Positions 20,368 to 25,771 of a stretch of 64,000 nucleotides of DNA are shown piece by piece. Numbering within the stretch: position 1 is the first letter of the stretch; each line of letters begins with the position of its first letter. The notes under the pieces are model-generated. The model did not search any database. It saw only the letters and a program-made list of their open reading frames with translations, and was not told the DNA's origin. The stretch covers positions 4,622,001 to 4,686,000 of the forward strand of contig NZ_FNSI01000001.1 in the NCBI RefSeq assembly GCF_900104955.1, given 5' to 3'. This stretch comes from Beijerinckia sp. 28-YEA-48. Its GTDB lineage: Bacteria; Pseudomonadota; Alphaproteobacteria; Rhizobiales; Beijerinckiaceae. The position numbers were made by a program, and so were the translations under genes.

Positions 20368-21237
20368 ATGACAACGGTCTTGTCTACTTCCCCGCCGCCT
20401 GGTGCGGCCGCCGACTGGACCATCCCGCAGGCGTGGACCAGTTATCGTCCCGATGAGCATGCCATGTGGGACCGGCTGTTCCAGCGCCAGTCCGCCATGT
20501 TGCCGCAGCGCGTGACGCCGGCTTTTTTCGAAGGGCTCGACATCCTACGCCTGTCGAAGCCGGGCATTCCCGATTTCAACGAGCTCAACGATCGACTGAT
20601 GAAGGCGACTGGCTGGCAGGTGGTGGCCGTGCCGAGGCTGGTGCCTGACGAAGTGTTCTTCGAGCATTTGGCCAACCGGCGCTTTGTCGCGGGCCGTTTC
20701 ATCCGCACGCCGGCGCAGATCGATTATCTGGAAGAGCCGGATGTCTTCCACGATGTGTTCGGCCATGTGCCGTTGCTCGCCAACCCGGTGTTCGCCGATT
20801 ACATGCAGGCCTATGGCCAAGGTGGCTTGCGCGCCGCCGGCCGTGGCGCCATCGAGAAACTGGCGCGGCTTTATTGGTACACGGTGGAGTTTGGCTTGAT
20901 CCGCGATGGCGATCACTTGCGGCTCTATGGCGCCGGCATTGTCTCGTCCTACGGCGAATCGATCTTCGCGCTCGATGATCCCTCGCCCAATCGCATCGGC
21001 TTCAATGTGAAGCGATTGATGCGGACTAATTATAAGATCGACGATTATCAGCAGACCTATTTCGTCATCGACAGCCTGGAAGATCTTTTAGACAAGACGC
21101 TCAACACCGATTTTGCGCCGATCTACGAAGAGCTCGAAGGGGTGCAGGCCTATGCGACCGATGCGGTGCTGCCCGACGATGTGGTCTATCATCGGGGCAC
21201 GCAGGCCTATGCGCAAACGCATTCGAAGGTAGGGTGA
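20368..21237 (+). CDS. phhA: Phenylalanine 4-monooxygenase
   Basis: A 289-residue pterin-dependent phenylalanine hydroxylase that makes tyrosine. The iron ligands are His128 and His133 in [11 protein letters not shown] and Glu174 in [18 protein letters not shown] and the C-terminal catalytic domain are complete. As in bacterial enzymes, no regulatory ACT domain is present. The next gene, pterin carbinolamine dehydratase, overlaps its stop, and this pair is standard for cofactor recycling. It would open the route from phenylalanine to tyrosine and homogentisate. Confidence 0.96.
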
Positions 21238-21530
21238 TGATCAAGAAACTGGATGCGGCGGCACGCGACAAGGCCTTGGCGGCTCTAAGCCACTGGCGCT
21301 ACGAATTCGAGCGCGATGCCATCGTGCGCGATTTTAAATTCGCCAATTTCGTCGAGGCTTTTTCGTTCATGTCGGCGGTGGCGCTGCTGGCGGAGAAGGC
21401 CGACCATCATCCCGAATGGTCGAATGTCTATAGTCGCGTCTCGATTCTGCTGACCACCCACGACGCCAAGGGCCTGTCCGAGCGCGACATCGCGCTGGCG
21501 CGGGAGATTGATCGGTTGGCCAAGGCGTAA
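21237..21530 (+). CDS. phhB: Pterin-4a-carbinolamine dehydratase
   Basis: A 97-residue dehydratase that recycles the oxidised tetrahydropterin cofactor of PhhA. The conserved motif reads [16 protein letters not shown], with the catalytic His-His and the later [12 protein letters not shown]. The ATG at 21237 overlaps the phhA TGA (TGATG), so translation is coupled; the GTG one codon earlier is an alternative. Its stop lies three bases from the convergent FecR-domain gene. Confidence 0.95.
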
Positions 21531-21533
21531 GCC

Positions 21534-23951
21534 TCAGCGTTTGCCGATGAAAATGCCCGTGCCCATGTAGGGCGCTCCGCCATTGTTCTGGAACATGAAG
21601 CGGCCGCCGGTCTCGATGGCGTTCGGGCCATAGAACGAGCCGTCGAAAGCGCCGGTTAAACCGGGGCTGGACATTGCGCCGTAGAAATTGACGCTGTTGG
21701 CGCCAAAGCTCGAGGCGCCGGTGTAGTTGCGGCCGTCGAGATTGTTGATGGCGAAGGTGCCGGTGCGGGCGCCGAAATCGACCGTATGAGAGAAATCGCC
21801 ACCGGCGACATATTCGCTGCTACCGGCGCGGATATTGGCGATCGCATTGCCCGTATAAGTGCCGGAACCGGTGATAGGCATGCTGGCGATGTCGGTTGGC
21901 TGCCCGGCGACCCAGGTGTTGAGATTGCCGGTGCGCAATTGCTGGCGCGAACCGTCGCTCGATGTGTAATTGATCTCGCCGGACCAGAAGCCCCATTGGG
22001 CGTAGTCGTAGTTGTGCCACTGGGTGACGGTGGGGAAAAAGCTGCGCGCCGTGGCGCGGTCCTGCGCCTCGAACATGCTCCAGGGCACGAGCAGCATGCG
22101 ATTCGGCCGGCTCGGATCCGACGGGCGCAGGTCCCCGTTGTTGTTGGTGGTGATCTCCGACGGCTGATAATCGAGGGCGTAGGAATTGCCGGTGACGGTG
22201 CCGCCATTGCGCGACACCTGCTCGCGCATCACCCAGGTGTTGCGATCAATATAGGCGGACCGCGTCGGTGCATTGGCGTCATTCGGATTCTCGCCGAACT
22301 GGAACAGGCCACCAATGGCAGAGCCAATGGCGTTGCCCGTCGCTTCGACAAAGGAGATGAAGCCCGAGCCAGTTGACCGGTTCGGATTGAACTGCAGTTG
22401 CGTATCACCATAGACGGTGCCGGGATCGGCGTTCGGTGTCGCATTGCCATTCGGGTCGATGCTGAAAGACTGCATCGTGCCGGCGGCATACCCCTGCCAC
22501 GTTCCCGCTGCGCGATCGGCGCCGATATTGCCGGGCGCGGGGCCTCCGGCCACGGGGATCAGATAGCTGTAGGTCGTGGTCGGTGACGTGCCGCCGAGAT
22601 GCTGGGTCGCCAGATCAGGGACGATCGCGCCACTTGAGGGCACATAGCGGTTCTGGGTGAGAACCATCTGCGTCGGTAGCGCATCATTGTTGAGCGCGAC
22701 GCTACCGGGAACCGACGTCAGATTGCCGCTGGAGAAGCCAGCGCCCTGGCCGGCGCTCTGGCGGCTGGCGGCGACAAAGCCGCCGGTGAAGCGTGAGCCA
22801 TTGGCGGTGCCGTCACTGATGAAATTGCCGGTGGCGCCAGCAAGGGTCGAACGTTGGTTCGCACCCTGTCCATCGATAGACAAAGCCGCGGTGGCGAAAC
22901 GGGTGCGTGAACCAGCGGTGCCCTCACCGCCATTGCGATAGCCATAGGCTGGCGTCACGATCACCGGGCCGTTGGTGATGAAGTTGCCCATCAGATAGGG
23001 CGCACTGCCAGCGCTGACGAGCGCATAGGTGCGCGGTTGATAGGTCAGTGGCGGCGGCGGTGGAGGGGGTGGGGGCGGCGGAGGCGGCGGGCCTACATTC
23101 GGATTGGTGCGCTGCGCCGCAGCGGTGCCCGCCGTGGCGTTCTGGATCACCGGCTGCTGATTGAGGAACTGCGGCGAGCTCGACAGGACACGTGGCCCAT
23201 TGGCCGACGTGCTGGCCTGCTGCTGCGGGATGGTGTTACGCGGCTCGGTCATCGCATTGGTGCGGCCGAGGTCGTTGAGCGTGGCGATTGTATCGGTCGG
23301 CGGCGTCCTGGAGCCACCGGTCTGGGCGGTGCGGCTGGTCAGTTGCTTGTTGGCATCATCGAGCTGCGCTTGCGTCACGCGGGTGGGTGTTGGCGGTGGC
23401 TGATTGCCATCGACGATCTCGACGCCGAAGCCAGGGCGGGACATCACTTCGGTGCCGCCATTGGTCGTCACCGTGGTGCGGCCGAACAGGTTCGTCACCT
23501 GCGTGCCTTGCGGCGTCTGGAAGATCATTGCCACGCCGCCACGCACGCCGATCGTCGCCGTCGGCGTTTTGATGGCGACATTGCCGCTCTTGCTGATCTG
23601 GCCGCCGACAAAGCGCATGGCGCCGCGGGTCAGGCTGATGGCGGTGCGGCCGCTCTGGGCACTCGGATCGTAGACGAACTCGTCGATGACGAGCTGGCTG
23701 TTGGGGCCGATGCTGAGCGTCGATTTATCGACGAAGGTGACCTGCAGCGAACCGGAGGCCGAGGTGGCGATGCGTTCGCGGAAGATAACGTCGCTGCCCA
23801 TGTCGACGGTACGCGTCGCGCTGCCGCGCTGTGCTGTCGTTGCCGGATTGACCGCGCCGGCGGTGCCGACCCGCTGTTGCGCCACGGCGGATGTGGCGGC
23901 GGCCAGCGCCAGAAGCGACAGGCCGGAGAGGAAAGTTGAACGAAATTTCAT
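21534..23951 (-). CDS. Exported FecR-domain protein with poly-proline linker and TbpB-like C-terminal barrel
   Basis: An 805-residue protein. A Sec signal peptide ends at AAATSAVA-QQ with no lipobox, so it is probably not a lipoprotein. A FecR-type beta domain follows (about 40-150: RIATSASGSLQVTFVDKSTL, TPTATIGVRGG). A low-complexity linker then includes 14 consecutive prolines. A long Gly/Asn/Thr-rich region ends in a barrel-like repeat (GSGTYTGNAIANI, DFGARTGTFAINNL, GAFDGSFYGPNAIETGGRF, GTGIFIGKR) resembling the TbpB/Slam-cargo barrel. The upstream gene encodes a Slam-like outer-membrane protein, so this is its likely cargo. The ATG at 23951 has better spacing from GGAGAGG than the one at 23954. 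Function is inferred; no binding ligand is known. Confidence 0.75.
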   Translation of the reverse strand: MKFRSTFLSGLSLLALAAATSAVAQQRVGTAGAVNPATTAQRGSATRTVDMGSDVIFRERIATSASGSLQVTFVDKSTLSIGPNSQLVIDEFVYDPSAQSGRTAISLTRGAMRFVGGQISKSGNVAIKTPTATIGVRGGVAMIFQTPQGTQVTNLFGRTTVTTNGGTEVMSRPGFGVEIVDGNQPPPTPTRVTQAQLDDANKQLTSRTAQTGGSRTPPTDTIATLNDLGRTNAMTEPRNTIPQQQASTSANGPRVLSSSPQFLNQQPVIQNATAGTAAAQRTNPNVGPPPPPPPPPPPPPPLTYQPRTYALVSAGSAPYLMGNFITNGPVIVTPAYGYRNGGEGTAGSRTRFATAALSIDGQGANQRSTLAGATGNFISDGTANGSRFTGGFVAASRQSAGQGAGFSSGNLTSVPGSVALNNDALPTQMVLTQNRYVPSSGAIVPDLATQHLGGTSPTTTYSYLIPVAGGPAPGNIGADRAAGTWQGYAAGTMQSFSIDPNGNATPNADPGTVYGDTQLQFNPNRSTGSGFISFVEATGNAIGSAIGGLFQFGENPNDANAPTRSAYIDRNTWVMREQVSRNGGTVTGNSYALDYQPSEITTNNNGDLRPSDPSRPNRMLLVPWSMFEAQDRATARSFFPTVTQWHNYDYAQWGFWSGEINYTSSDGSRQQLRTGNLNTWVAGQPTDIASMPITGSGTYTGNAIANIRAGSSEYVAGGDFSHTVDFGARTGTFAINNLDGRNYTGASSFGANSVNFYGAMSSPGLTGAFDGSFYGPNAIETGGRFMFQNNGGAPYMGTGIFIGKR

Positions 23952-23963
23952 CATCCTCTCCGA

Positions 23964-25370
23964 TCAATAGCGAGCCGTGGGGCCCATCACGATGGTGAAA
24001 TTATTGGTGCGGTAGTTCGCCAGGCTGGACGTGGTTTTCGACCAGACCAACTGGGCGCCGAAGCCGAAATTCTCATGCACCGGCATGTCGAAAGCAACAC
24101 CGGCGCGCCAATCGACATCGTTGCGGCGGATCAGCGGGTCGATGACGATGTTGGGCGTCGTGTAGCGGGTGGCGTAGCGGCTGACGAAGGGCGTCACCGT
24201 CCAGCGCTTCTGGATCGCGGCGAAAGGCGGATCGAAATCCATCGCCAGAGACGCCTCAAAACCGTTCTGGTGGAAGGAGTTATACGTCAGCACCGAGGCA
24301 TTGTTGCCAAGCATGGCGCGCAGGTTCAGCCGTGCCCAAGGCGCCAGCGGATAGACGAAATTGGCATAGGCGATGTCGAGCTTGCCGGTCTGGCCGTAGG
24401 CGGTCGGATAGGTGAACGAATTAGAGAAAGTGCGGTCGCGGCGTTCGGCGCCGACTTCGATAATGCCGCCGAAGGGTGTCGGCGCGGCGACGCTGGCGCC
24501 ATAGCCCAGCGTGCGCATGTAGGGATTGCCGCCAAGCTGGAAGCCATTGGCGATGAGATAGGGGCGGAAGGTCCAGCCGGTCAGCACATCAGGCAGGATG
24601 GCGAGGCGTGGGCCGGTGCTGATTTCACCGAGCAGCAGATCGAGTTGGGTGAAGCGGTTCTGCCGGGTCGCATAGCCCTGCACCAGGGTTTCCCAGGTGT
24701 CGCCGCGCTGGTTGTCGAAATCGTAGACATAGCGCACGCCGCCGAGCGCGAAGAGATTCCAGTCGGGCGCGCGACGGAAGTTCTGGCTGATCTGGCCGTC
24801 GAAGCCGAAGACGCGGGCGTTGCCGCCATCGGGCCCGGCATTGGCATTGCTCTGGTGGCGCACGCCGATCTGGCCGAAAGCCGTAATGCCATGGCGGCTG
24901 TTGCGGCGCTCGATCTCGGTCAGATAGGGCTGCACGCGAGCGCGTACTTCGAATGGTACATCCGGTTCGGCCAACACGGTTTCGAGATAGGATTTCGCCT
25001 GCGTGTAAGAGCCGAGGCGAAAATAGAGAATGCCGAGTTCGAGACGCACGCGGCCGAGCTTGCTGTTGTAGAACAGGATGCGTTCGAGCGCGCCGATGGC
25101 GGCTTCGTAGTCCTGCACCTGCGAGGCAACTTCAGCGAAGCGGAACGCCAGAGCCGCATCGCTTGGATTGTGCAAGGAGGCCTGGAACAATTGTTCGAAT
25201 TCGGTGCGCTGCGCGGTCTGCGCTTGCGGCGAGGTCGTGGAGAGGACGAGGAACGCCGCGCTCAGCGCGGTGATGATCTGACGATGATGCTGGCCGAGAG
25301 TGGCGCCGAGGTGCCCGGCACGTCTCCACACATTCGCCGGCCCGCGACCCGGCGAGATCTTCGCAGTCAC
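23964..25370 (-). CDS. TPR/beta-barrel outer-membrane protein, Slam-like (type XI secretion type)
   Basis: A 468-residue protein. Its signal sequence (TALSAAFLVLSTTSPQAQ) follows an unusually long 30-residue n-region. TPR-like helices come next at about 55-155 (ALAFRFAEVASQVQDYEAAI, VRLELGILYFRLGSYTQAKS). A C-terminal beta-barrel of about 300 residues is rich in alternating aromatic strands and ends in Tyr, as outer-membrane proteins do. TPR followed by barrel is the Slam (surface lipoprotein assembly modulator, DUF560) layout. The start is a GTG with AAGGAG seven bases upstream. The stop is 12 bases before the FecR/TbpB-like gene, pointing to a transporter-cargo operon. An alternative is a generic TPR outer-membrane protein. 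Confidence 0.75.
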   Translation of the reverse strand: MTAKISPGRGPANVWRRAGHLGATLGQHHRQIITALSAAFLVLSTTSPQAQTAQRTEFEQLFQASLHNPSDAALAFRFAEVASQVQDYEAAIGALERILFYNSKLGRVRLELGILYFRLGSYTQAKSYLETVLAEPDVPFEVRARVQPYLTEIERRNSRHGITAFGQIGVRHQSNANAGPDGGNARVFGFDGQISQNFRRAPDWNLFALGGVRYVYDFDNQRGDTWETLVQGYATRQNRFTQLDLLLGEISTGPRLAILPDVLTGWTFRPYLIANGFQLGGNPYMRTLGYGASVAAPTPFGGIIEVGAERRDRTFSNSFTYPTAYGQTGKLDIAYANFVYPLAPWARLNLRAMLGNNASVLTYNSFHQNGFEASLAMDFDPPFAAIQKRWTVTPFVSRYATRYTTPNIVIDPLIRRNDVDWRAGVAFDMPVHENFGFGAQLVWSKTTSSLANYRTNNFTIVMGPTARY

Positions 25371-25495: not shown

Positions 25496-25771
25496 TCAAT
25501 ACTGGTTAAGGCCGGCGTGTTCCATTTCGCCCCGATCGAGAGCGGCGGTGATCGCCTTCACCAGTTCGCGGGCGGTTTCAGCCGACAGTTCCACGGCGAT
25601 GCGTTCGCGCCCACCCGCAGCTTCGTTGATGAAGTCGATCGACAGCGCGTGGTCGAGCGGCGTGTGGAACGGATGGTCGAAATAGACGTGGGCGGTGTCG
25701 ATGCTTTTCCAGTCCGTCTGCGCCTTGGCGCTGCCGTAGAGGGCGACCTTTTCGACGATGTAAGAGCACAT
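25496..25771 (-). CDS. Small conserved protein, possibly DUF6295
   Basis: A 91-residue protein starting MCSYIVEKVALYGSAKAQTD, with YFDHPFHTPLDHALSIDF in the middle and an amphipathic C-terminal helix. AAGGAG precedes the ATG at 25769-25771. There is no signal or membrane segment. The layout reminds me of the DUF6295 family, from memory and unverified. It lies 10 bases downstream of the dienelactone hydrolase gene on the same strand, so the two are probably co-expressed. No function is proposed. Confidence 0.75.
   Translation of the reverse strand: MCSYIVEKVALYGSAKAQTDWKSIDTAHVYFDHPFHTPLDHALSIDFINEAAGGRERIAVELSAETARELVKAITAALDRGEMEHAGLNQY

Follow-up and report, generated by a model that had tools for sequence, protein, structure and literature searches.

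Two genes on the minus strand of a 64-kb window (the whole stretch of DNA analysed, from Beijerinckia sp. 28-YEA-48, contig NZ_FNSI01000001.1, positions 4,622,001 to 4,686,000) encode an outer-membrane protein (OMP), P0002, and a putatively exported companion, P0001. P0002 is, by comparison of barrel profiles, a remote homologue of the Slam/DUF560 proteins of the type XI secretion system (T11SS); in P0001 a FecR domain is fused to a C-terminal beta barrel of the TbpB type found in T11SS cargo. Among relatives of the pair, the FecR domain rather than the barrel is the conserved partner of this OMP, and CHASE2 adenylate cyclases are associated with it. Comparison with these relatives suggests that the two proteins may do more than serve secretion, as the outer arm of a cyclic-AMP (cAMP) sensing pathway.

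Gene layout and domain composition

The two genes are arranged head to tail with that of P0002 first. Their features are as follows.

23964-25370, minus strand: P0002, Slam-like outer-membrane protein of 468 aa with a signal region, tetratricopeptide repeat (TPR) helices and a 14-strand barrel (Pfam, profile comparison, model)
24900-25229, minus strand: TPR helical domain of P0002, residues 48-157 (Pfam, AlphaFold model)
23970-24893, minus strand: beta barrel of P0002 with 14 strands, residues 160-467 (matches the Slam/PF04575 barrel in profile-profile comparison; model)
23955-23961, minus strand: Shine-Dalgarno-like GGAGAGG ahead of P0001, touching the first ATG (sequence read)
21534-23954, minus strand: P0001, with FecR domain, poly-proline linker, handle and TbpB-like barrel (Pfam, NCBIfam, PDB sequence search, model, Foldseek)
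23880-23954, minus strand: putative signal peptide of P0001, residues 1-25, AVA/Q, no cysteine (signal peptide I pattern read by eye)
23481-23774, minus strand: FecR domain of P0001, residues 61-158 (Pfam, 50.2 bits, cut-off 24; Foldseek)
23049-23090, minus strand: poly-proline run of P0001, residues 289-302, within a flexible linker at about 191-305 (sequence; low pLDDT at 206-289)
22011-23039, minus strand: middle beta-rich region (residues 306-483) and handle/pedestal (484-648) of P0001 (model, alignment)
21537-22010, minus strand: C-terminal TbpB/NHBA-type beta barrel of P0001, residues 649-806 (Pfam, NCBIfam, PDB, Foldseek)

The junction consists of the P0002 stop codon, TCGGAGAGG and ATGATG, with a ribosome-binding site between the genes. 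Counting from the first ATG, the gap is 9 nt and P0001 has 806 aa; from the second, 12 nt and 805 aa. The second ATG (23951) is the likelier start, because GGAGAGG directly abuts the first. The gene positions, the 12-base gap and the 805 residues given in a first-pass annotation of the stretch were thus reproduced. So was its description of an OMP with TPR helices followed by a barrel, and of a putatively exported partner with a FecR domain, a poly-proline linker and a TbpB-type C-terminus; the matches that bear on the two descriptions are given below.

Relationship of P0002 to Slam

Pfam detected TPR repeats in P0002, scored TPR_Slam at 13.9 bits (cut-off 35.2) and gave no match to PF04575 (SlipAM), and P0002 is not a member by the Pfam Slam models. 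No match was returned anywhere when the genome of the window (G000) was searched with PF04575. In the P0002 family (alignment A2; P0002 and 63 of the 80 named loci described below, 64 members in all), PF04575 was matched by 1 member and TPR_Slam by 17 (E<=0.01).

Since TPR repeats and generic barrels can mislead, the barrel was compared alone. For the Slam profile, 299 genomes of the phylum were searched with PF04575, and 25 of the 30 loci returned were used. In hhalign the barrel of the P0002 family (26, then 64 rows) matched that of Slam at 96.6-99.7% over nearly its whole length, and the controls, with reversed columns or with the Porin_2 profile, remained below 2%. On the strength of the high barrel-only match and the low controls, P0002 was classified from its sequence as a remote Slam/DUF560 homologue lying outside the Slam models of Pfam. 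This distance may explain why surveys that start from DUF560 lack the family, as far as the available text of one of them goes (PMC8406197).

The AlphaFold model of P0002 (64 rows, mean pLDDT 89.4) has TPR-type helices at residues 48-157 and 14 long strands at 160-467; by Pfam and by the model, P0002 thus has the Slam-type order of a TPR domain followed by a membrane barrel. Foldseek matches to the model, in the best 50 of 1490, were porins, other outer-membrane barrels and BcsC, with no solved Slam among them. The Slam-like character proposed at first pass therefore stands as remote homology of the barrel and did not extend to the Pfam models or to these structural matches.

The TbpB-type barrel of P0001

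In P0001, Pfam placed TbpB_B_D at residues 692-791 (29.8 bits, above the cut-off of 26) and scored FHBP_C at 27.9 bits (cut-off 28.1). The NCBIfam model slam_lipo matched residues 649-790 (E 2.2e-13; 50.7 bits, under the equivalog cut-off of 80), and a sequence search of the PDB returned NHBA/GNA2132 (best E 0.0013). TbpB, LbpB, NHBA, fHbp and HphA were among the Foldseek matches listed for the P0001 model, the C-terminal domain of NHBA at a TMt of 0.71-0.72. The FecR part matched PupR (6ovk) with a root-mean-square deviation of 3.1 over 142 columns and a TMt of 0.52. The C-terminus of P0001 is a barrel of the T11SS-cargo type by sequence and fold, as judged from domain-level matches that agree with the sequence profiles. 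P0001 accordingly has two properties of T11SS cargo, the TbpB-type C-terminal barrel and a neighbouring gene for a T11SS-type OMP. It is entirely free of cysteine and therefore without a lipobox, as the first-pass annotation had said.

The partners were aligned from 26 of the 30 barrel-bearing loci and P0001 (alignment A3, 27 partners). At E<=0.001, FecR was matched by all 27, slam_lipo by 26, FHBP_C by 9 and TbpB_B_D by 8. Conservation was best in the FecR domain (50%), followed by the barrel (38%) and the handle (20%); the middle region of P0001 (306-483) is missing from the short-type relatives. Bilobed TbpB has a further barrel lobe, and one was considered for the middle of P0001, but the sequence did not support it: residues 306-648 matched the C-terminal barrel at 1.4% or less by profile comparison. 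The motif CxC-[YF]T-x-WG precedes the barrel in 24 of the 27 aligned partners, and both of its cysteines are missing from P0001 (residues 645-655) and from its close relative L096.

Linkage and distribution in relatives

The 6.4-Mb genome of the window contains a single match to the OMP and a single match to the barrel, and these are adjacent. A relative of P0002 was present in 31 of 149 genomes of the family, G000 included. Its neighbourhood was surveyed in two sets of loci that overlap in part, so that their counts are not additive. In the first set (32 fetched loci, L034-L065), a FecR gene neighboured the OMP gene in 28, nine of them with a barrel, and three of the other four end at the OMP. 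In the second (80 named loci, L096-L175), a FecR gene adjoined the OMP in 60, and 30 of these 60 partners showed a barrel; the 30 barrel-less partners include two cut by a contig end (L105 and L158) and a short one of 188 aa (L115). The 20 loci without FecR comprise two that end at the OMP (L111 and L157), six of a Nitrobacter group, eleven with more distant OMPs and one other (L109). The distance from the OMP stop codon to the start of the FecR domain was 94-146 nt in 56 of the 60 linked loci. What is conserved beside this OMP is therefore FecR and not the barrel, which was not seen in half of the linked partners.

The barrel was confined to genomes with the OMP: it was found in 12 of the 149 genomes, which are 12 of the 31 with the OMP and none of the 118 without (Fisher 9e-10, a value that ignores kinship). 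Up to 24 first-look candidates were scored per genome in this census, and its absences are not exhaustive. No barrel was found elsewhere in genomes in which the only partner found was of the FecR-only kind. Second copies of a TbpB-like barrel away from the OMP locus were seen at G109:C2:305097-305579 (L200) and G079:C1:6821524-6821957.

A tree of the OMPs was built by a quick method, with SH-aLRT support only and with long-branch warnings. The barrel state occurs in both deep and shallow branches, and 25 FecR-only rows group together in a single clade (SH-aLRT 100). Rows were left without a state where the partner is cut by a contig end (L105, L158) or the contig ends at the OMP (L111, L157). 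Eight changes suffice for all three partner states; by itself the tree cannot separate gain of the barrel from its loss. The FecR-only partners have a common tail with the consensus LTS-x-PGQ-x-GG-...-PTD-...-PPG-x-DPLGY-x-SIF (30 rows, leaving out L105, L158 and L115).

Several partner arrangements depart from these types. Two FecR-domain genes follow the OMP in L098:10357-14248, L141:7620-11507 and L173:6284-9295; in L098 and L141 one of the two has a barrel, in L173 neither has, and the second gene of L098 meets a contig end. At L060:4163-5581 (minus strand) and L063:6998-8419 (plus strand) the FecR partners have 472-473 aa. By eye their C-terminus seems rich in beta strands and does not resemble the TbpB-type barrel; it may be a different exported module that goes with the same OMP family. 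Five loci with distant OMPs, from metagenome-assembled Alphaproteobacteria and Rhodospirillaceae (L160, L164, L171, L172 and L174), showed no FecR; next to the OMP of each is a similar opposite-strand protein of about 267-297 aa ('APQMMGLVA...').

Association with CHASE2 adenylate cyclases

Clustering of the neighbouring genes gave a CHASE2 adenylate cyclase as the second recurrent companion of the OMP. Of the 80 named loci, 22 have a CHASE2-cyclase gene (phmmer E<=1e-20 to the cyclase of the Nitrobacter locus L130) on the same strand and at most 5 kb downstream, and 15 of the 58 loci without one have less than 5 kb of sequence there. The CHASE2 proteins of L130 and of G000 both have CHASE2 and Guanylate_cyc domains. 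In the six loci of the Nitrobacter group (L130, L133, L136, L137, L144 and L151), the OMP is near a downstream CHASE2-cyclase gene. A CHASE2 protein was found in 31 of 31 genomes with the OMP versus 50 of 118 without it (Fisher 2.5e-10, again ignoring kinship).

CHASE2 matches were placed at 111 positions in 79 of the 81 genomes that have CHASE2, with weak and fragmentary matches left out, and were compared with the 150 FecR matches listed; linkage counts obtained in this way are lower bounds. Of the 111 places, at least 40 had a FecR match no more than 5 kb from CHASE2. By the 22 linked loci of 80 and the CHASE2 proteins of all 31 OMP genomes, FecR, TPR and outer-membrane components are genetically tied to a CHASE2 cyclase in the family, not at the window's own locus. 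Elsewhere in the genome of the window, at L002:1291-2397 (G000 C1 near 3005114), a FecR protein of 368 aa with a proline/glycine-rich tail lies beside a dnaJ-like gene, and is a rival candidate for the partner of the unlinked CHASE2 cyclase of G000.

NsrA-type FecR-TPR proteins

Full-length relatives of a CHASE2-adjacent FecR protein occurred in seven genomes of the family (G032, G099, G122, G142, G070, G051 and G010), as FecR matches in open frames of 1226-1327 aa within 5 kb of CHASE2. All seven lack a Slam-like OMP; they are too few for a test of mutual exclusion. Three such proteins were examined; these have 1211-1259 aa, combine FecR with a TPR array and abut a CHASE2 gene, and no Pfam match was obtained in their last 600 residues. 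On a megaplasmid of Sinorhizobium meliloti a FecR-TPR protein, unnamed in its record, similarly abuts a gene with CHASE2 and cyclase domains; from its size, place and organism it is probably NsrA. According to the available text of two reports, NsrA is an outer-membrane receptor with a barrel portion at residues 600-1200 and is required for signalling through CyaK and CyaD1/D2 (PMC7529298; PMC13001267). Most CHASE2 cyclases of Campylobacterota cluster with FecR and TPR proteins, according to the part of PMC9239204 that was available.

The FecR parts of the NsrA-type proteins are homologous to the FecR of the P0002 partners (97.1%). FecR, TPR and outer-membrane protein recur with CHASE2 in two builds, one fused (NsrA type) and one split and with a Slam-type barrel (P0001/P0002). 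In P0001/P0002 they are divided between two proteins and are not, as in the NsrA type, in a single chain next to a CHASE2 cyclase; the long C-terminal region of that chain is a barrel by the published account, and no TbpB-like domain as in P0001 was found in it by Pfam. The FecR domain common to both builds is a candidate for the link between the outer membrane, where NsrA resides, and the inner-membrane CHASE2 cyclase, a link that the NsrA literature leaves unexplained in its available text. Neither the CHASE2 association nor the NsrA-type proteins figured in the first-pass annotation.

Proposed function of the pair

The P0001 and P0002 genes would form a dedicated outer-membrane unit, in which P0002 would supply a T11SS-like barrel of the Slam type and, in the periplasm, its TPR domain. 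P0001 would be exported by Sec; P0002 would then recognise its handle and TbpB-like barrel and bring them to the cell surface. The FecR domain would act in, or start from, the periplasm as the link to the inner-membrane CHASE2 adenylate cyclase, and the state of the surface would thereby alter cAMP. Our confidence is evenly divided for and against this proposal, the simplest account of the data, in which the TbpB-like part would leave through a Slam-like translocon and FecR would work in cAMP signalling from the periplasm. In its favour are the Slam-type barrel of P0002, the cargo-type barrel of P0001 and its occurrence only in OMP genomes, the close linkage and conservation of FecR, the CHASE2 association, the FecR-TPR proteins that abut CHASE2 genes, and the published roles of NsrA and of FecR near Slam/TbpB-type genes. 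A more specific version is tentative and rather doubtful: P0001 would be a half-exported sensor, with the TbpB-like lobes at the surface by way of the Slam-like barrel, the proline-rich linker in or under the pore, and a periplasmic FecR in direct contact with the CHASE2 adenylate cyclase. If it were true, a secretion pore would also serve as the membrane-spanning part of a cAMP receptor, as a split and re-invented counterpart of NsrA. Its boldest point is that FecR would be left behind in the periplasm.

A number of observations weigh against the proposed function. P0002 scores below the Pfam Slam cut-offs. The confidence of the P0001 model is moderate (72.3), and its TM-scores to full-length TbpB in Foldseek are low (TMt 0.20-0.26); flexibly joined domains in the model could explain these low scores. 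Among 63 FecR partners, 4 match a loose lipobox pattern, one of them from L096, the closest relative of P0001, so that absence of a lipobox is sure for P0001 only and may not hold throughout the family. The eleven more distant OMP loci, from other Alphaproteobacteria, show no FecR gene, and between the OMP and CHASE2 in the six Nitrobacter-group loci no FecR gene was found, FecR remnants not being searched for. CHASE2 is also present in 50 of the 118 genomes without the OMP. In G000 the single CHASE2 cyclase (C1:1856703) is unlinked to the pair, and the three FecR matches found in G000 all lie away from it. Homology between the C-terminal region of NsrA-type proteins and P0002 was sought and rejected (0.4%, tested on the proteins of the family and not on that of Sinorhizobium). 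The S. meliloti FecR gene smc02177, numbered next to cyaD1, is dispensable for perception of the plant signal, according to the available text of PMC5498481, and the known FecR neighbours of Slam/TbpB genes work with extracytoplasmic function (ECF) sigma factors, not with CHASE2.

Plain T11SS secretion is possible, if on the unlikely side. P0002 would export the whole of P0001 as a soluble binding protein, released or surface-bound in the style of hemophilin, with FecR as its N-terminal effector, and the tie to CHASE2 would be one of regulatory neighbourhood or a coincidence. The C-terminal barrel and handle of P0001 are those of known cargo, its lack of a lipobox is like that of soluble cargo, and published cargo vary in their N-terminal effector domains (PMC12282271, in its available text); the unlinked CHASE2 gene of G000 is also as expected. 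Against such an account are the retention of FecR with the OMP in 60 of 80 loci, versus 30 of 80 for the barrel, and the recurrence of CHASE2, close downstream in 22 of 80 loci and present in every one of the 31 OMP genomes.

Export is dispensed with in another explanation, a periplasmic receptor complex, which we consider improbable. The OMP would be a ligand-binding barrel or channel, as is thought for NsrA, and P0001 would remain in the periplasm with its barrel on the TPR domain and FecR signalling to CHASE2. NsrA exposes only its barrel portion at the surface (PMC7529298, in its available text), and the NsrA-type protein has FecR and TPR domains; the FecR-only partners show no exported module, and the Nitrobacter-group OMP is kept beside CHASE2 with no FecR partner found. 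Against these points, PMC12282271 in its available text gives the barrel as the putative domain by which Slam-exported proteins are targeted, the barrel was found in 12 of 31 OMP genomes versus none of 118 others, and the NsrA-type relatives have a C-terminal region of another family. That P0002 is an unrelated TPR porin, like Slam just in having a generic barrel and TPR, would agree with the missing PF04575, the score far under the TPR_Slam cut-off and the Foldseek matches, but is largely refuted by the barrel-only match and its controls; the adjoining TbpB-like partner also speaks against it, and it is very improbable.

The proposed T11SS-type unit with FecR-fused cargo, as formulated at first pass, is thus upheld in the fold of the barrel and in the linkage of the two genes, whereas FecR rather than the barrel proved to be the conserved partner and the account in full was not supported. 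Three outcomes had been named beforehand as contrary to it, a plain TPR porin family, a partner without a barrel fold and unlinked genes; none of them occurred. Of the checks that it had suggested, the gene-neighbour survey gave the FecR linkage above, and structure prediction with Foldseek matched the P0001 barrel to the TbpB/NHBA types but did not recover a Slam among the best 50 of 1490 matches for P0002.

Relation to published systems

P0002 shares with the Slam/T11SS OMPs (DUF560; PF04575 SlipAM and PF24575 TPR_Slam) its size, the order of TPR and barrel, the homology of the barrel profile and an adjacent gene for TbpB-like cargo. Its family differs in scoring below the Pfam cut-offs, in a companion that carries FecR, in the lack of a barrel in half of the linked partners and in the CHASE2 association. 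Similarly, P0001 has in common with TbpB, LbpB, NHBA, fHbp and HphA a C-terminal barrel after a handle (TbpB_B_D, Foldseek) and is distinguished by the N-terminal FecR, the proline-rich linker and the lack of a lipobox. About ten cargo architectures are described in PMC12282271, none with FecR in its main text. FecR is likewise unmentioned in the main text of PMC8406197; the supplementary tables of both papers may hold an unremarked FecR-bearing entry.

FecR signalling near TbpB-type cargo has precedent, because in Lysobacter, and apparently in Acinetobacter, FecR/ECF genes adjoin genes of the Slam/TbpB type. The Lysobacter cluster (orf4990-4994) comprises a sigma factor, a FecR regulator, a TonB-dependent transporter, a TbpB-like lipoprotein and a Slam relative (PMC11233812, in its available text). 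A gene-hit table in the available part of PMC12300311 suggests that a haem cluster of Acinetobacter contains a FecR protein and a transferrin-binding-like protein along with a sigma factor. Loci of the Lysobacter type resemble that of P0001 in grouping FecR with TbpB-like cargo and a Slam-type OMP, but their FecR is separate and paired with a sigma factor, whereas that of P0001 is fused to the cargo, with no adjacent sigma gene. With the FecA-FecR and PupB-PupR systems of cell-surface signalling P0001 shares the FecR fold (PupR, 6ovk); it has no anti-sigma part and no TonB-dependent receptor, and in its case a cyclase would stand in for the ECF sigma factor. No gene for a sigma factor or receptor was seen beside P0001 among the open reading frames (ORFs) of the window read by eye, and the FecI-FecR-FecA arrangement is absent there. 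A FecI-FecR-receptor-like set was read by eye elsewhere in the genome of the window (L001).

With NsrA-CyaK of S. meliloti the pair shares FecR, TPR, an outer-membrane barrel and a CHASE2-cyclase partner. Searches for literature joining CHASE2 with TbpB, DUF560 or T11SS found none, subscription papers being mostly outside the search; those joining the FecR domain, tetratricopeptide, outer membrane and adenylate cyclase found no paper with both sides. Published loci already place separate FecR genes next to those of the Slam/TbpB type. The fusion of FecR to a cargo barrel, which the first-pass annotation had taken to be undescribed, was not found in the T11SS literature searched, nor was the tie to CHASE2. 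The Slam/T11SS family is hereby widened to an alphaproteobacterial branch outside the Pfam models, and two fields are joined, Slam-type export and CHASE2 cAMP signalling.

Flanking genes

The genes on either side of the pair are unrelated to P0001 and P0002. On the plus strand, positions 20368-21530 hold what we take, from their sequences, to be phenylalanine hydroxylase-like and pterin dehydratase-like genes. Upstream of the pair is a small ORF of 91 aa (25496-25771, minus strand).

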